This document shows, one piece after another, positions 3,292 through 36,918 of a stretch of DNA of 64,000 nucleotides. A program made the position numbers and the translations under genes. The stretch lies in the NCBI RefSeq assembly GCF_009650215.1, contig NZ_CP045851.1, positions 2,321,001 through 2,385,000 of the forward strand, read 5' to 3'. Source of the stretch: Actinomarinicola tropica. Lineage in GTDB: Bacteria > Actinomycetota > Acidimicrobiia > Acidimicrobiales > SKKL01. How positions within the stretch are numbered: position 1 is the first letter of the stretch; each line of letters opens with the position of its first letter. The notes under the pieces are model-generated. The model ran no database searches. It saw only the letters and a program-made list of their open reading frames with translations, and was not told the DNA's origin.

Positions 3292-4005
3292 TCAGCCGGC
3301 TTGACGCACCGATCCACCGCGCAACGCTGTCATCAGCGCACCTGCGGTCACCGCAGCGGTCTCCGCGCGCAGGATGTGGTCGCCGAGAGCGACGGCATCG
3401 CCCGCCACGTCCCGCTCGGCATCGCTCCACCCGCCCTCCGGGCCGACGAGCACCACGGTGTCGTCGGCACGCAGGGTGCGCCCACCACGATCGGCCCGGA
3501 CCGAGTGCGGGAGGGCGGCCGCCACGGCGATCTCGTAGGGACCGTCGATCTCCGGCAGGTAGCAGCGGCGGCACTGCATCGACGCCTCCCGCGCGATGCG
3601 CGCCAGGCGCTCCAGCTGCCGCGCCGCCCGCTCCCCCTCCCACCGCACGACGGAGCGCTCCGCCTGGAGGACGAGGATCCGGTCGATGCCGAGCTCGGTC
3701 AGCTTCTGGACCACCCACTCGGGCCGGTCGCCCTTCACGGGCGTGAACGCCACCGTCAGCGACGGCGAGCGGCGGGCCACGTGGTGCACGTCGTCCTCGG
3801 GCTGGATCGGCACGCCGTAGCGACACCGCCGCCACCGGCCGTGACCGTCGGACACCGTGAGCGGGTCACCGGCGCGCACCCGCAGCACCCGCTCGAGGTG
3901 GTGGCGGTCGTCGGCGCCGATGGCGGGACGTGCGATGTCGTCGACGAAGACGTGCGGACCGCTGCGACCGTCGGGCCCGAGCTCCGCCTGCTCCTCGCCC
4001 GCCAT
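3292..4005 (-). CDS. rsmE: 16S rRNA (uracil-1498-N3)-methyltransferase RsmE
   Basis: 237 residues, the usual size for this SPOUT-class enzyme, which methylates U1498 of 16S rRNA with S-adenosylmethionine. The N-terminal PUA-like part contains HHLERVLRVRAGDPL. The C-terminal knotted domain carries the SAM-binding VVLVGPEGGWSDAE and a terminal ILRAETAAV segment. It starts at ATG 4005, two bases after the dnaJ stop, so it is the last gene of hrcA-dnaJ-rsmE, an arrangement common in actinobacteria and firmicutes. It should be co-transcribed from the CIRCE-controlled promoter. Confidence 0.93.
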   Translation of the reverse strand: MAGEEQAELGPDGRSGPHVFVDDIARPAIGADDRHHLERVLRVRAGDPLTVSDGHGRWRRCRYGVPIQPEDDVHHVARRSPSLTVAFTPVKGDRPEWVVQKLTELGIDRILVLQAERSVVRWEGERAARQLERLARIAREASMQCRRCYLPEIDGPYEIAVAAALPHSVRADRGGRTLRADDTVVLVGPEGGWSDAERDVAGDAVALGDHILRAETAAVTAGALMTALRGGSVRQAG

Positions 4006-11031: not shown

Positions 11032-12384
11032 TCAGCGGACCTCGTCGTAGCGGGCCAGCGCCTCCTCCCGCTCCGCGGCGTGGTCGACGATCGGCTCCGG
11101 GTAGTCGGCGTCGCCGAACAGGTCGGCCGGGGCCGTCCACGGCTCGTGGATCCGCCGGCGGTCCAGGTGCGCCAGCTCGGGCACCCACCGCCGGATGTAG
11201 TCGCCGTCGGGGTCGAACTTCTTCGACTGGGAGACCGGGTTGAAGATCCGGAAGAACGGCGCGGCATCGGTGCCGGTGCCGGCTACCCACTGCCATCCGT
11301 GCGTGTTGGACGCCAGGTCGCCGTCCACCAGGTGCTGCATGAAGTGGTGAGCGCCACGGGACCAGTCGACGTGCAGGTCCTTCACGAGGAAGCTCGCGAC
11401 GACCATGCGGACCCGGTTGTGCACCCATCCCTCACCGAGCAGCTGGCGCATCCCGGCATCGACGAGCGGGTAGCCGGTGCGCCCCTCGGCCCACGCCGCG
11501 AAGCGCTCGTCGGCCCGTCGTCCGGCGTCGACACGCATCCGGCGCATCTTCTCCTGGTACGCCCGTCGCGTCGTGTCCGGGCGGTCGAGGAGGACGTCGG
11601 CGTAGAACTCCCGCCACGCCACCTCGGACCGGAACGTCTCCTCCCCCTCGGTGCGACCGAGTCGGTGGAGGATCTGCCGAGGGTGCAGGCAGCCCCACTT
11701 GAGGTAGGGCGACAGGCGGGACGTGGCGTCCTGCGCCGGCTCGTCCCGCAGCTCCCCGTACCGCTCCACGCGGTGCCGGAGGAACGTGTCCAGCCGACGG
11801 CGGGCCGCCGCCTCGCCGGGCTCCGGCAGGTCGGCCGCGACGTCGGGCCGGTCGGGCAGCGGGTCCGAGGCGATGCCGGTGACCGCCTCGAGGGACCTCG
11901 GGCGCTGCACCGGATCCGGCCACCCGACGTCGCGCCACGCCCGGTAGAACGGCGTGAACACCTTGTACGGCGCGTCGGTGCGGTTGACCACCGTGCCCGG
12001 CTCGACGGCGTAGGCGGAGCCGATCCGCTCGAGCGGGACCTCGTCGCCGTCGAGCACGCGCTCGACCTCCTCGTCCCGGCGGCGCCCGTAGGGGCCGTGA
12101 TCCGCGGCGCAGACGACGGCGGACGCGTCGACCTCTCGTGCGGCGGACGGCACCACCTCCACGGGATCGCCGACGCGCACGACGAGGCGACCATCGAGAT
12201 CGGCGGAGAGGGCGTCGAGGCAGCCGAGGAGGAACCAGCGACGGTTCGCCCCGGCCGGCTCCCACAGAGCGGGGTCGATCACGAACAGAGGGAGGACCTG
12301 CCCGCGGCGCGCCGCCTCGGCCAGCGCAGGGTTGTCCGCGAGGCGCAGGTCCCGTCGGAACCACATGACGGTGGGGCGCGTCAC
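11032..12384 (-). CDS. phr: deoxyribodipyrimidine photo-lyase
   Basis: 450 residues, class I photolyase/cryptochrome family. It repairs UV pyrimidine dimers using light and FADH-. The N-terminal antenna domain begins VMWFRRDLRLADNPAL. The C-terminal FAD domain carries the canonical TGYPLVDAGMRQL, GWVHNRVRMVVASFLVKDL and HGWQWVAGTGTDAAPFFRIFNP blocks, so it looks functional. GTG 12384 overlaps the SDR stop (GTGA), so it is translated with the SDR gene; the internal ATG 12366 is a less likely start. The gene implies exposure to sunlight. Confidence 0.95.
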   Translation of the reverse strand: MTRPTVMWFRRDLRLADNPALAEAARRGQVLPLFVIDPALWEPAGANRRWFLLGCLDALSADLDGRLVVRVGDPVEVVPSAAREVDASAVVCAADHGPYGRRRDEEVERVLDGDEVPLERIGSAYAVEPGTVVNRTDAPYKVFTPFYRAWRDVGWPDPVQRPRSLEAVTGIASDPLPDRPDVAADLPEPGEAAARRRLDTFLRHRVERYGELRDEPAQDATSRLSPYLKWGCLHPRQILHRLGRTEGEETFRSEVAWREFYADVLLDRPDTTRRAYQEKMRRMRVDAGRRADERFAAWAEGRTGYPLVDAGMRQLLGEGWVHNRVRMVVASFLVKDLHVDWSRGAHHFMQHLVDGDLASNTHGWQWVAGTGTDAAPFFRIFNPVSQSKKFDPDGDYIRRWVPELAHLDRRRIHEPWTAPADLFGDADYPEPIVDHAAEREEALARYDEVR

Positions 12385-34198: not shown

Positions 34199-34271
34199 GG
34201 GGCTATAGCTCAGTTGGTAGAGCGCTTCCATGGCATGGAAGAGGTCAGGAGTTCGATTCTCCTTAGCTCCA
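34199..34271 (+). tRNA. tRNA-Ala, anticodon GGC
   Basis: 73 nt fold as a complete cloverleaf. Acceptor GGGGCTA pairs with TAGCTCC (one G-U), and the D stem is GCTC/GAGC. The anticodon stem is CTTCC/GGAAG around ATGGCAT, giving anticodon GGC. The T stem is AGGAG/CTCCT with TTCGATT, and the discriminator is A. No CCA is encoded. It reads GCC, expected to be the main alanine codon in DNA this rich in G and C. Confidence 0.97.
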
Positions 34272-34275
34272 CTCC

Positions 34276-34314: not shown

Positions 34315-34707
34315 TCAGGCCTCGGCGGCGGCGGGCGGCTCGTCCCACTCCAGGCGGGGCACGTCGGACCAGAGCCGCTCGAGCTCGTAGAAGGCCCGGG
34401 CCTCGTCGTCGAAGACGTGCACGACGAAGTCCCCGTAGTCGACGAGGACCCACTGGAGCGTGTCCCGTCCCTCGACGCGCCGCGGCTTCGGACCGCCGGC
34501 CTCGGTGATCTTGGCCTCGACCTCGTCGACGAGGGTGCGGACCAACCGGCTGTTGCCGGCGCTGACGATGACGAAGGCGCCCGTGATCGCGACGACGCTG
34601 CCGACGTCGAGCACGACCGGGTCGTTGCCTCCCTTGGCGGCCGCGGCGCGGGCTGCGAGGAGCGCCCAGTGCGTGGGGTCCGTGTCCGTGTCGTGCTCGG
34701 TGCTGAT
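34315..34707 (-). CDS. rsfS: ribosome silencing factor RsfS, apparently starting at ATC
   Basis: 130 residues as drawn. The core VLDVGSVVAITGAFVIVSAG, GRDTLQWVLVDYGDFVVHVF and YELERLWSDVP match RsfS, which binds L14 and blocks subunit joining in starved cells. The first canonical start (GTG 34614) would remove the conserved N-terminal helix WALLAARAAAAKGGNDPV. Between that GTG and the upstream LCP gene's in-frame TAG there is no ATG, GTG, TTG or CTG. ATC at 34707-34705 follows GAGAGG with 7-nt spacing and is the best candidate. It lies 12 bases after the LCP stop. Confidence 0.85.
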   Translation of the reverse strand: MSTEHDTDTDPTHWALLAARAAAAKGGNDPVVLDVGSVVAITGAFVIVSAGNSRLVRTLVDEVEAKITEAGGPKPRRVEGRDTLQWVLVDYGDFVVHVFDDEARAFYELERLWSDVPRLEWDEPPAAAEA

Positions 34708-34719
34708 GGTGACGCCTCT

Positions 34720-35979
34720 CTACGTGCCCAGGGCGCCGGCGAGGTCCTGGCCGATGACGACCACGATGTCGGCGCTCTCGTCGACCTCGTCGACCCTGGT
34801 CACGGTACCGAACCCGAGGGCCTCCGCGACCTCCTGGGCCTCCTCGCGGCGGGTGTCGTCCCAGTAGGTGATCTGGGTCTCGGCGTGGTCGAACCGGTCG
34901 GCGTTGCCCACCAGCACGACCTGGCCACCCGCCGCGACCACGCGCCGGGCCACCTCCACCGTGCCCTCCTGCGGACCCGTGCCCGCGAGCACGCGGACGA
35001 GCGGTCGGCTGCCGCCCGCGTTGCTCGCCGGGAACGGGACGACCTCGGGGATCACCCGATCGAGCACCTCGGGGGCGGCGACGAACGTCTCCGGTGTCGA
35101 CGGGTCGCTCACGGGCACAGGCTCGACGGGAAGGGCCTCGAGGTGGACGGTGCCCGAGGCGATCGTCGGCAGGAAGCGGGCCAGCCCGCGCTCCTGCTCG
35201 CCGGGGAACTGCACGGCGGTCGGGTCCTCGGCCATCGCGTCGAGCCAGGCGCGCCACACGAGCTCCTGGCGGAAGAGGCGGTTGAGGCGGCTCTCGCCGG
35301 GCTGGAGCGCGGCGGCGTAGGCGGGCACCTGGCTCGGTTCGAGCACCAGCTCGCCGGCGGGGAACGCCACGTCGCCCTCGGCGTCGCGGAGGACGTCGGG
35401 GTTGGTGAGGGCCAGGGGCCCGGTCGAGCTGATGACGTCGCTCCATTCCGCCGGGTCGAGGACCACGACGTCGTCGATCGAGATGCCGAGCGCCCACTCG
35501 GCGGTGGCGCGCGCCGCGTCGAGCCCGCTGTACGCGTACGCCGCGTCGATCGGCAGCTCGCCGATGTCGGGGACGTCGCCCACCGTCGCCGGCGGCACGA
35601 GGAGCACACCGCCGCCGTCGCCGTCCTCGCTGGGCAGGCCGAGCAGGGTGGTGCCGACCAGCCCGCCGGCGTCGTCGACGTGGAGGACGAGCAGCGTCGG
35701 CGAGGGCGCGACCAGCGCCTGGAAGCCGGGCTCGTTCGGGTCGAGCTGGGGGTCGACGACCTGGCCGTCGCTGCTGTCGAGGATCACCTGCACGCCGATC
35801 CAGCCGAGCACGGGCACGGCGAGGCCGAGGAGGACCAGGGCCGCGACGTAGGCCGTCATCGCCCGCTGGTGGACGCGCTGCGCCCTGCGACGCTGCTCGG
35901 AGCGACGGGGGCGCCGATCCGGCGCGTCGGGAGCGTGGGGGAAGCGCGCCGGCACGTCCTGGTCCGCCTGGGTCGTCAC
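34720..35979 (-). CDS. LCP-like protein with LytR_C domain, catalytic site degenerate
   Basis: 419 residues. A short basic cytoplasmic N-terminus and one membrane helix (~45-68) precede an LCP-like extracytoplasmic domain (~90-260) containing LPIDAAYAYSGLDAARATAEWALGI. The C-terminal LytR_C domain (~320-415) has RPLVRVLAGTGPQEGTVEVARR and VGNADRFDHAETQITYW. Active LCP enzymes attach glycopolymers to the wall and have an IPRDT-like catalytic arginine motif. Here that position reads VPPATVGD, so activity is doubtful. GTG 35979 overlaps the nadD stop (GTGA). Confidence 0.82.
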   Translation of the reverse strand: MTTQADQDVPARFPHAPDAPDRRPRRSEQRRRAQRVHQRAMTAYVAALVLLGLAVPVLGWIGVQVILDSSDGQVVDPQLDPNEPGFQALVAPSPTLLVLHVDDAGGLVGTTLLGLPSEDGDGGGVLLVPPATVGDVPDIGELPIDAAYAYSGLDAARATAEWALGISIDDVVVLDPAEWSDVISSTGPLALTNPDVLRDAEGDVAFPAGELVLEPSQVPAYAAALQPGESRLNRLFRQELVWRAWLDAMAEDPTAVQFPGEQERGLARFLPTIASGTVHLEALPVEPVPVSDPSTPETFVAAPEVLDRVIPEVVPFPASNAGGSRPLVRVLAGTGPQEGTVEVARRVVAAGGQVVLVGNADRFDHAETQITYWDDTRREEAQEVAEALGFGTVTRVDEVDESADIVVVIGQDLAGALGT

Positions 35980-36554
35980 GCGCCGTCCCGGTACAGCCCG
36001 CGCCCGAGGACGCAGGCGATGACGTCGCGCGGCAGCAGGTAGTCGAGCGGACGCCCGTCGCGGACCCGGGCGCGGATGTCGGTGCTCGAGATCTCGAGCT
36101 GGGGGACCTCGACGACCTCGTAGCGGTAGCCCTCGGGGGGCCGCGCCCCCTCGGTGCCCGGCCGGTCGACCACGACGATGTCGGCCAGCTCCTTCAGGCG
36201 CTCCGTGTGCTCCCAGGTGGGCAGCCCGGCGACGGCGTCGCTGCCGAGGATGAGGAACAGGTCGGCACCGGGCAGCTCGTCGTGGAGCTGGGCCAGCGTG
36301 TCGGCGGTGTAGGAGCGGCCGCCACGCCGGATCTCGATGTCGCTCGCCGCCAGCCCTTCGACGCCGTCGACCGCGGCGTCGACCATCGCGAGCCGATCGG
36401 CGGCGGGGCTGAGGTCGCGCACCCCGAGCTTCTGCCACGGTTCGTTGGCCACGACGAGGAGCACGCGATCGAGGCGGGCGCCGTGGCGGGCGTTGAGGGC
36501 GGCGACGAGGTGACCGACGTGGGGTGGGTCGAAGGTGCCACCGAAGATGCCCAC
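35976..36554 (-). CDS. nadD: nicotinate-nucleotide adenylyltransferase
   Basis: 192 residues from GTG 36554; an in-frame GTG at 36572 adds six. The enzyme makes NaAD from nicotinate mononucleotide and ATP in NAD synthesis. It has the nucleotidyltransferase GIFGGTFDPPHVGH motif at the very N-terminus and the second motif ISSTDIRARVRDGRPLDYLLP. GGGGAG lies 10 nt before GTG 36554. It is the first gene of nadD-LCP-rsfS, all overlapping or nearly so. Confidence 0.93.
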   Translation of the reverse strand: MGIFGGTFDPPHVGHLVAALNARHGARLDRVLLVVANEPWQKLGVRDLSPAADRLAMVDAAVDGVEGLAASDIEIRRGGRSYTADTLAQLHDELPGADLFLILGSDAVAGLPTWEHTERLKELADIVVVDRPGTEGARPPEGYRYEVVEVPQLEISSTDIRARVRDGRPLDYLLPRDVIACVLGRGLYRDGA

Positions 36555-36918
36555 GCGCTCACGTCTCCCCACCGCCGGCAGCTTACGGCGGAACCGACAC
36601 CACTTCGGCGCACGGGCTTGGTACCTTGGTGGACCCCCTCGTCCCGCACCCACGACCCGACCGGCCGCCGCTGCGCAGGCCGCACCCGGTGCGACGGGGG
36701 TCACCCGCACCTTCCCTCACACGACGCCCATTACCGCCGATCCAATCGAGAGGCAACCCCGCCCGGGCCTGCGGTGACGCATTTCACCCGAGTGAGCGGA
36801 AGCAGCGCGGGGTACCAGTCGTTGAACCCCTTGCAGGGCTCCCCCCATCCCCCCACACCTCCCCTGCACCACGCGAGATGGGAATGACACGCACGTCGTT
36901 CCCGTTGGAGAGATCGTC
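36555..36918. other. 364-bp non-coding region between nadD and the sigma factor gene
   Basis: Divergent intergenic region. I see no protein gene or known riboswitch. It has C-rich tracts around 36841-36865 and one clear stem-loop (36880-36903). It must hold the promoters of both flanking genes, but no convincing -10/-35 pair was found. Confidence 0.6.
36880..36903 (+). promoter_or_regulatory. stem-loop just before the sigma factor ribosome site
   Basis: GGGAATGAC and GTCGTTCCC pair over nine positions (one G-U) around a 6-nt loop, ending three bases before the GGAGAG ribosome site of the sigma gene. It could be an RNA control element or a dyad operator. Confidence 0.4.

Follow-up and report, generated by a model that had tools for sequence, protein, structure and literature searches.

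An ATC codon as the likely conserved, non-canonical start of rsfS in the Actinomarinicola family

The best reading of the sequences compared here is that rsfS, the gene for a ribosome-silencing factor, has a real, conserved and non-canonical start codon in the Actinomarinicola family (SKKL01). In the window, i.e., the whole stretch of 64,000 nucleotides that was analysed, the proposed start is an ATC on the minus strand (34705..34707). The view that this AUC is the true initiating codon is well supported, as judged from the conservation of the ATC in relatives together with the absence of canonical starts around it. The codon belongs to the class rejected by initiation factor IF3, and the production of RsfS may be kept weak or conditional through it.

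The rsfS locus and its start region

Counted from the ATC, rsfS occupies 34315..34707 on the minus strand and comprises 130 codons and the stop TGA at 34317-34315. The product was recognized as RsfS by its match to PF02410 in a profile search (E = 9.7e-27, 93.5 bits against the curated cut-off of 21.6) and by RsfS chains in the PDB, where RsfS of M. tuberculosis, 4WCW, was the best match (E = 3.5e-23). The alignment to 4WCW starts from residue 13, counted from the ATC, and the alignment to 2O5A from residue 17. Both include the N-terminal helix that precedes the first strand, which agrees with the claim of an earlier note on this DNA that the conserved helix is encoded. The gene order on the minus strand is nadD (35976..36590; PF01467, E = 1.1e-20), a LytR-CpsA-Psr-like (LCP) gene with a terminal LytR_C domain, and rsfS; beyond rsfS, and convergent with it, a tRNA-Ala(GGC) lies at 34199..34272 on the plus strand. 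The 3' part of the LCP gene lies at 34720..35925 on the minus strand; its LytR_C domain matched PF13399 with E = 1.3e-8, and the LytR_cpsA_psr profile gave 21.7 bits, which is under its cut-off of 24.6. LCP homologues were also found upstream of rsfS in two relatives, G001 and G002.

Around the start the minus strand reads GGC ACG TAG AGA GGC GTC ACC ATC AGC ACC GAG, where the TAG (34720..34722) is the stop of the LCP gene. No in-frame ATG, GTG, TTG or CTG was found in rsfS between this TAG and a GTG at 34614, and in the window no ATG, GTG or TTG begins within 30 nt of the ATC in any frame. The earlier note had stated that rsfS lacks ATG, GTG, TTG and CTG before GTG 34614 and had placed an ATC at 34707; sequence and coordinates bear out both statements, the ATC being 34707-34705 and in the rsfS frame. 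A Shine-Dalgarno-like GAGAGG (34715..34720, minus strand), the first G of which also ends the TAG, is separated from the ATC by a spacer of 7 nt. Its duplex energy is -6.4 kcal/mol. The median was -5.8 kcal/mol among 309 starts predicted in this genome and -2.8 among 3000 positions drawn at random, 12% of which had a match as strong. The motif and its 7-nt spacer had been described correctly before, but the description as ideal was too strong for an energy close to the median. In all three family genomes with rsfS a purine run (GAGAGG, GAGAGG, and GGAAGG) ends 7 nt before the ATC, with energies of -6.4, -5.8, and -6.0, respectively, values again close to the median of predicted starts; the part that aligns to the anti-Shine-Dalgarno sequence in G002 is AAGG, which gives a shorter spacer. 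The average strength of the Shine-Dalgarno match is a point against the ATC start. The start region was less folded than its shuffles (z = +1.78), and folding against shuffles revealed no notable RNA hairpin there.

A search of 59 genomes, the own one included, yielded rsfS in 55. The family consists of four genomes, again including the own one, and rsfS was found in three of them. The comparison of the start within the family therefore covers three genomes, two of them from one genus. In all three the ATC precedes a conserved Trp by 13 codons, in the same register (G001, locus L003; G002, locus L004), and none of the three has ATG at this place. Indeed, no ATG, GTG or TTG was found from the in-frame stop to the helix in any of the three, and only G002 has in addition a CTG, located 8 codons upstream of its ATC. 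The ATC is the sole codon of 13 leader codons that is identical in all three genomes. It is singled out by the variation around it, since codons +1 to +12 share 2, 1, and 2 identical codons in the pairwise comparisons and none of the 12 is common to all three. ATC is a common Ile codon in this genome, with 3.9% of codons in an own-genome sample, and its conservation is for that reason less telling than conservation of ATA would be. The locus of G001 forms part of JAENWR010000060.1, a public record of metagenome-assembled sequence (Acidimicrobiia). In the fourth family genome, G003, contig C57 carries nadD and part of the LCP gene and ends inside the latter, at about 12,955; since the contig ends before rsfS, the gene is probably missing from the assembly, and G003 is uninformative on the start.

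A simple coding score, applied to 464 kb of the genome that holds the window, predicted 390 genes, 338 of them outside the window. In nine of the 390 the first ATG, GTG or TTG comes 10 or more codons after the predicted onset of coding; long leaders of these nine genes were viewed to 45 codons, and homology was checked for rsfS only. An in-frame leader ATC within that distance was present in three of the nine, namely rsfS, L201 at 14551 and L191 at 3881. The coding score lost at L201 was 2.6, versus 8.9 in rsfS, and an ATG is found there at 17 codons. L191, on the minus strand near 3881, is an open reading frame of 104 codons with coding signal, where CTG is the first early start candidate. 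Near 11626 (own genome C1, approximately 431,600) L189 showed a short-chain dehydrogenase-like signal that, as judged by eye, seems to change frame near its 5' end; a frameshift, a pseudogene or an assembly error would account for it. Others of the nine genes, inspected by eye, were long overlapping frames or had CTG or a nearby canonical start.

Start codons of rsfS and control genes in a wider set

A survey of rsfS starts was built from 155 loci, consisting of order-mates and the best 80 contig matches, with a few titled as other groups. Fifteen of these had identical start regions and were removed before counting, which left 140 loci; rsfS is present in 377 genomes, and the survey read part of these. 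According to simple rules, which considered the codons before the helix or motif and leave single calls in distant genomes uncertain, 126 loci had ATG, GTG or TTG, nine had CTG, four had AUH only, and one (L098) had neither. A slightly different cut of the 140 loci gave 127 canonical starts, nine CTG and four AUH. One of the nine loci classed as CTG is L004 from the family genome G002. The AUH-only loci, i.e., those without ATG, GTG, TTG and CTG, were L001, L003, L091, and L099, two of which come from the Actinomarinicola family.

For the control genes the counts refer to the best 30 loci of the genomes with matches, these genomes numbering 38 for infC, 56 for nadD, 58 for obgE and 57 for pth. 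Loci without ATG, GTG or TTG were seen in obgE (1/30), pth (3/30) and nadD (2/30), each with a CTG available, and in none of 12 leuS loci. One of the nadD controls, L234, has an ATC in addition to the CTG. In the three pth loci, L285, L293, and L296, a TAG is followed closely by CTG, and no ATG, GTG or TTG is present. CTG starts thus seem to be fairly usual in this order, and since the obgE, pth and nadD controls show CTG as well, it is to be seen as common usage in the group rather than as a feature of rsfS. The counts do not support the idea that rsfS in the wider group generally tends towards starts that IF3 rejects, the CTG share being similar to that of the controls. AUH-only starts were counted in 4 of 140 rsfS loci and in 0 of 102 control loci (obgE, pth, nadD, and leuS), a difference that is too small to claim an excess. 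Two of the four rsfS loci are distant ones. L091 (JAUVNV010000107.1) and L099 (JABMPV010000356.1) have no ATG, GTG, TTG or CTG before the helix; in the former an ATC follows GAAGGAG, in the latter an ATT follows GGGAGG. They are possible independent AUH starts of rsfS.

The situation in infC, which served as a positive control from the same lineage, was different from that of the other controls. All 30 loci (L156-L185, the best 30 from 38 genomes with a match) have an AUH codon at the start position, ATA in 21 and ATC in nine, and in 22 of the 30 the 20 codons ahead of the motif contain no ATG, GTG or TTG. The own-genome infC is L171 (C1:1798949). In all four family genomes the start region reads GAGGAG-TGA-GTG-GCA-ATA, with GCG replacing GCA in one of them. 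The GTG lies only 3 nt and the ATA 9 nt after GAGGAG, and for this reason ATA is the likelier start of infC in the family; several other infC loci also have 9 nt to their ATA or ATC. The conservation of this ATA is telling, because coding sequence hardly uses ATA, which accounts for 0.01% of codons in a sample of the own genome.

A possible role of the proposed start, and rival readings

We consider it likely that rsfS is translated from the AUC at 34707, assisted by the Shine-Dalgarno sequence and by coupling, with RsfS kept low and maybe higher when IF3 is short. According to this proposal the initiator fMet-tRNA would read the AUC after Shine-Dalgarno pairing, and ribosomes that terminate on the LCP gene 12-22 nt upstream would probably aid initiation there. 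The third base of the AUC would mispair with the initiator anticodon, which would place the codon in the class rejected by IF3; UUG is tolerated by IF3, AUC is not. RsfS synthesis would be held low because AUC is in that class, and, as with infC, it may rise at times when IF3 is scarce in relation to 30S subunits. A control of rsfS through the level of IF3, as suggested in the earlier note, is a plausible idea, given that both factors keep the subunits from joining.

Published observations on the separate parts of this proposal are as follows. ATC, ATT, ATA, and CTG starts function at reduced rates in E. coli (excerpt of PMC13068326). In a reconstituted system more IF3 favours strong and disfavours weak third-base pairs, the example given in the available portion of PMC10158994 being AUU/CAU and not AUC/CAU. 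RsfS of S. aureus binds uL14 and blocks the joining of 30S and 50S, as stated in an excerpt of PMC7125091. In E. coli without RimM, where 30S assembly is impaired, the levels of IF3 as well as RsfS are elevated, and each factor counteracts subunit joining, according to part of a 2026 report (PMC13246957). A wider scheme for this family, in which infC (AUA), coding for the factor of the 30S side, and rsfS (AUC), coding for that of the 50S side, are both placed under one sensor, the start-codon discrimination of IF3, is rather unlikely. If it were true, a shortage of IF3 would lead to more of both IF3 and RsfS, and RsfS would take over the separation of subunits; the two genes would form an IF3 regulon joined by their start codons alone. 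If the link to IF3 holds, two factors of one step would be joined, and the start-codon class common to infC and rsfS would offer a simple route of coordination.

The rival that survives best accepts the same start site and differs on its purpose. The AUC would be a start without regulation, a weak codon fixed by drift in one family, with upstream coupling giving adequate output; we give this slightly less than an even chance. The control genes described above show that weak non-standard starts are no rarity within the order, rsfS itself lacks ATG, GTG and TTG in 14 of 140 loci, nine of them classed as CTG, and the LCP stop is located just 12, 22, and 20 nt upstream of the ATC in the three family genomes. 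However, two genera have retained the ATC, whereas each of the codons around it is changed in at least one genome, and GTG, TTG and CTG, which are common alternative starts, were not taken.

According to a second and serious rival, translation begins at the GTG (34612..34614, minus strand), either alone or as a second site, which would result in a protein of 99 residues without the first helix. This GTG stands 31 codons after the ATC, is the first in-frame canonical start-like codon of rsfS, and is conserved in all three family genomes. In the window it is preceded at 13 nt by GGGAGG (-9.3), and in G002 a Shine-Dalgarno-like stretch lies 10 nt upstream of the first GTG (-11.2), both stronger than the sequence before the ATC. 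In G001, however, the corresponding stretch is GGGCGG, with an energy of -4.8, which is weaker than the match before its ATC, and the stretch before GTG 34614 is at the same time made of codons for Lys-Gly-Gly of the RsfS domain. A start at the GTG would remove positions 3 to 16 of PF02410 together with the helix seen in the alignments to 4WCW and 2O5A. That helix changes mainly through synonymous codons (7-8 synonymous and 4-5 non-synonymous of 18 codons per genome pair), and it looks conserved as protein. Furthermore, an ordinary start lies ahead of the helix in 126 of the 140 distinct rsfS loci. The GTG may serve as a second start, but taken as a whole we regard this reading as unlikely by a wide measure.

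The remaining rivals are weaker. Another non-standard codon close to the ATC (ACC, GTC, GAC or AGC) could be the true start, or initiation could be spread over several; codons directly flanking the ATC in the window have equal Shine-Dalgarno energies, but none of the four codons is common in place to the three family genomes, and all fit the CAU anticodon worse than ATC, which makes this reading improbable indeed. A fusion in which RsfS extends the LCP protein, by read-through or by a frameshift, would find some reason in the window, where the LCP TAG is in frame with rsfS, but it is out of frame in G001 and G002. Measured from the R24 codon, the stop is at -72, -82, and -80 nt in the respective family genomes and falls in all three frames, and therefore neither read-through nor programmed frameshifting can be their common solution; such a fusion was rejected as extremely improbable. 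An error in base calling that masks a normal start was likewise rejected, its probability being next to nil: the comparison of the three family genomes gave no evidence for an error at the ATC, and the same codon stands in three separate assemblies with differing codons around it.

Comparison with known start codons of this class

With initiation at the AUC as the preferred reading, rsfS would join the known genes with AUU or AUC starts. Natural starts of this kind are known, and they are few. No AUC start of rsfS was found in a search of the literature among open-licence PMC papers; an arXiv survey by Gvozdjak and Samanta reportedly deals, by its title, with genes that keep non-AUG starts, and could list rsfS. 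Usual gene finders take only ATG, GTG and TTG, and RsfS of this family would therefore be cut at GTG 34614 and seem defective.

A close parallel is infC, where control by IF3 in E. coli was reportedly described by Butler et al. in 1987. Like rsfS in the reading preferred here, infC has a start of the AUH class with a Shine-Dalgarno sequence, conserved over relatives, and its product prevents the joining of ribosomal subunits. The difference is that the AUH start of infC is widespread, whereas the AUC of rsfS is fixed, as far as seen, only in the Actinomarinicola family. In Listeria, infC (ATT) and rnhC (ATC) have fixed non-canonical starts that were confirmed experimentally, according to an excerpt of PMC13068326. 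As a natural gene with a fixed ATC start, rnhC resembles rsfS with its putative one. The two proteins are unrelated, and Listeria belongs to another phylum. We know of no link between Listeria rnhC and the ribosome. The E. coli orthologue of rsfS, ybeB, starts with TTG. In the available part of PMC10917681 this UUG is called a minor start codon, and translation of E. coli rsfS is described as unchanged by polyamines. The orthologue thus also has a non-AUG start, with UUG in place of the AUC proposed here, and since E. coli rsfS uses TTG, it is only the AUH class of the start, and not a non-AUG start as such, that would be peculiar to the Actinomarinicola family.
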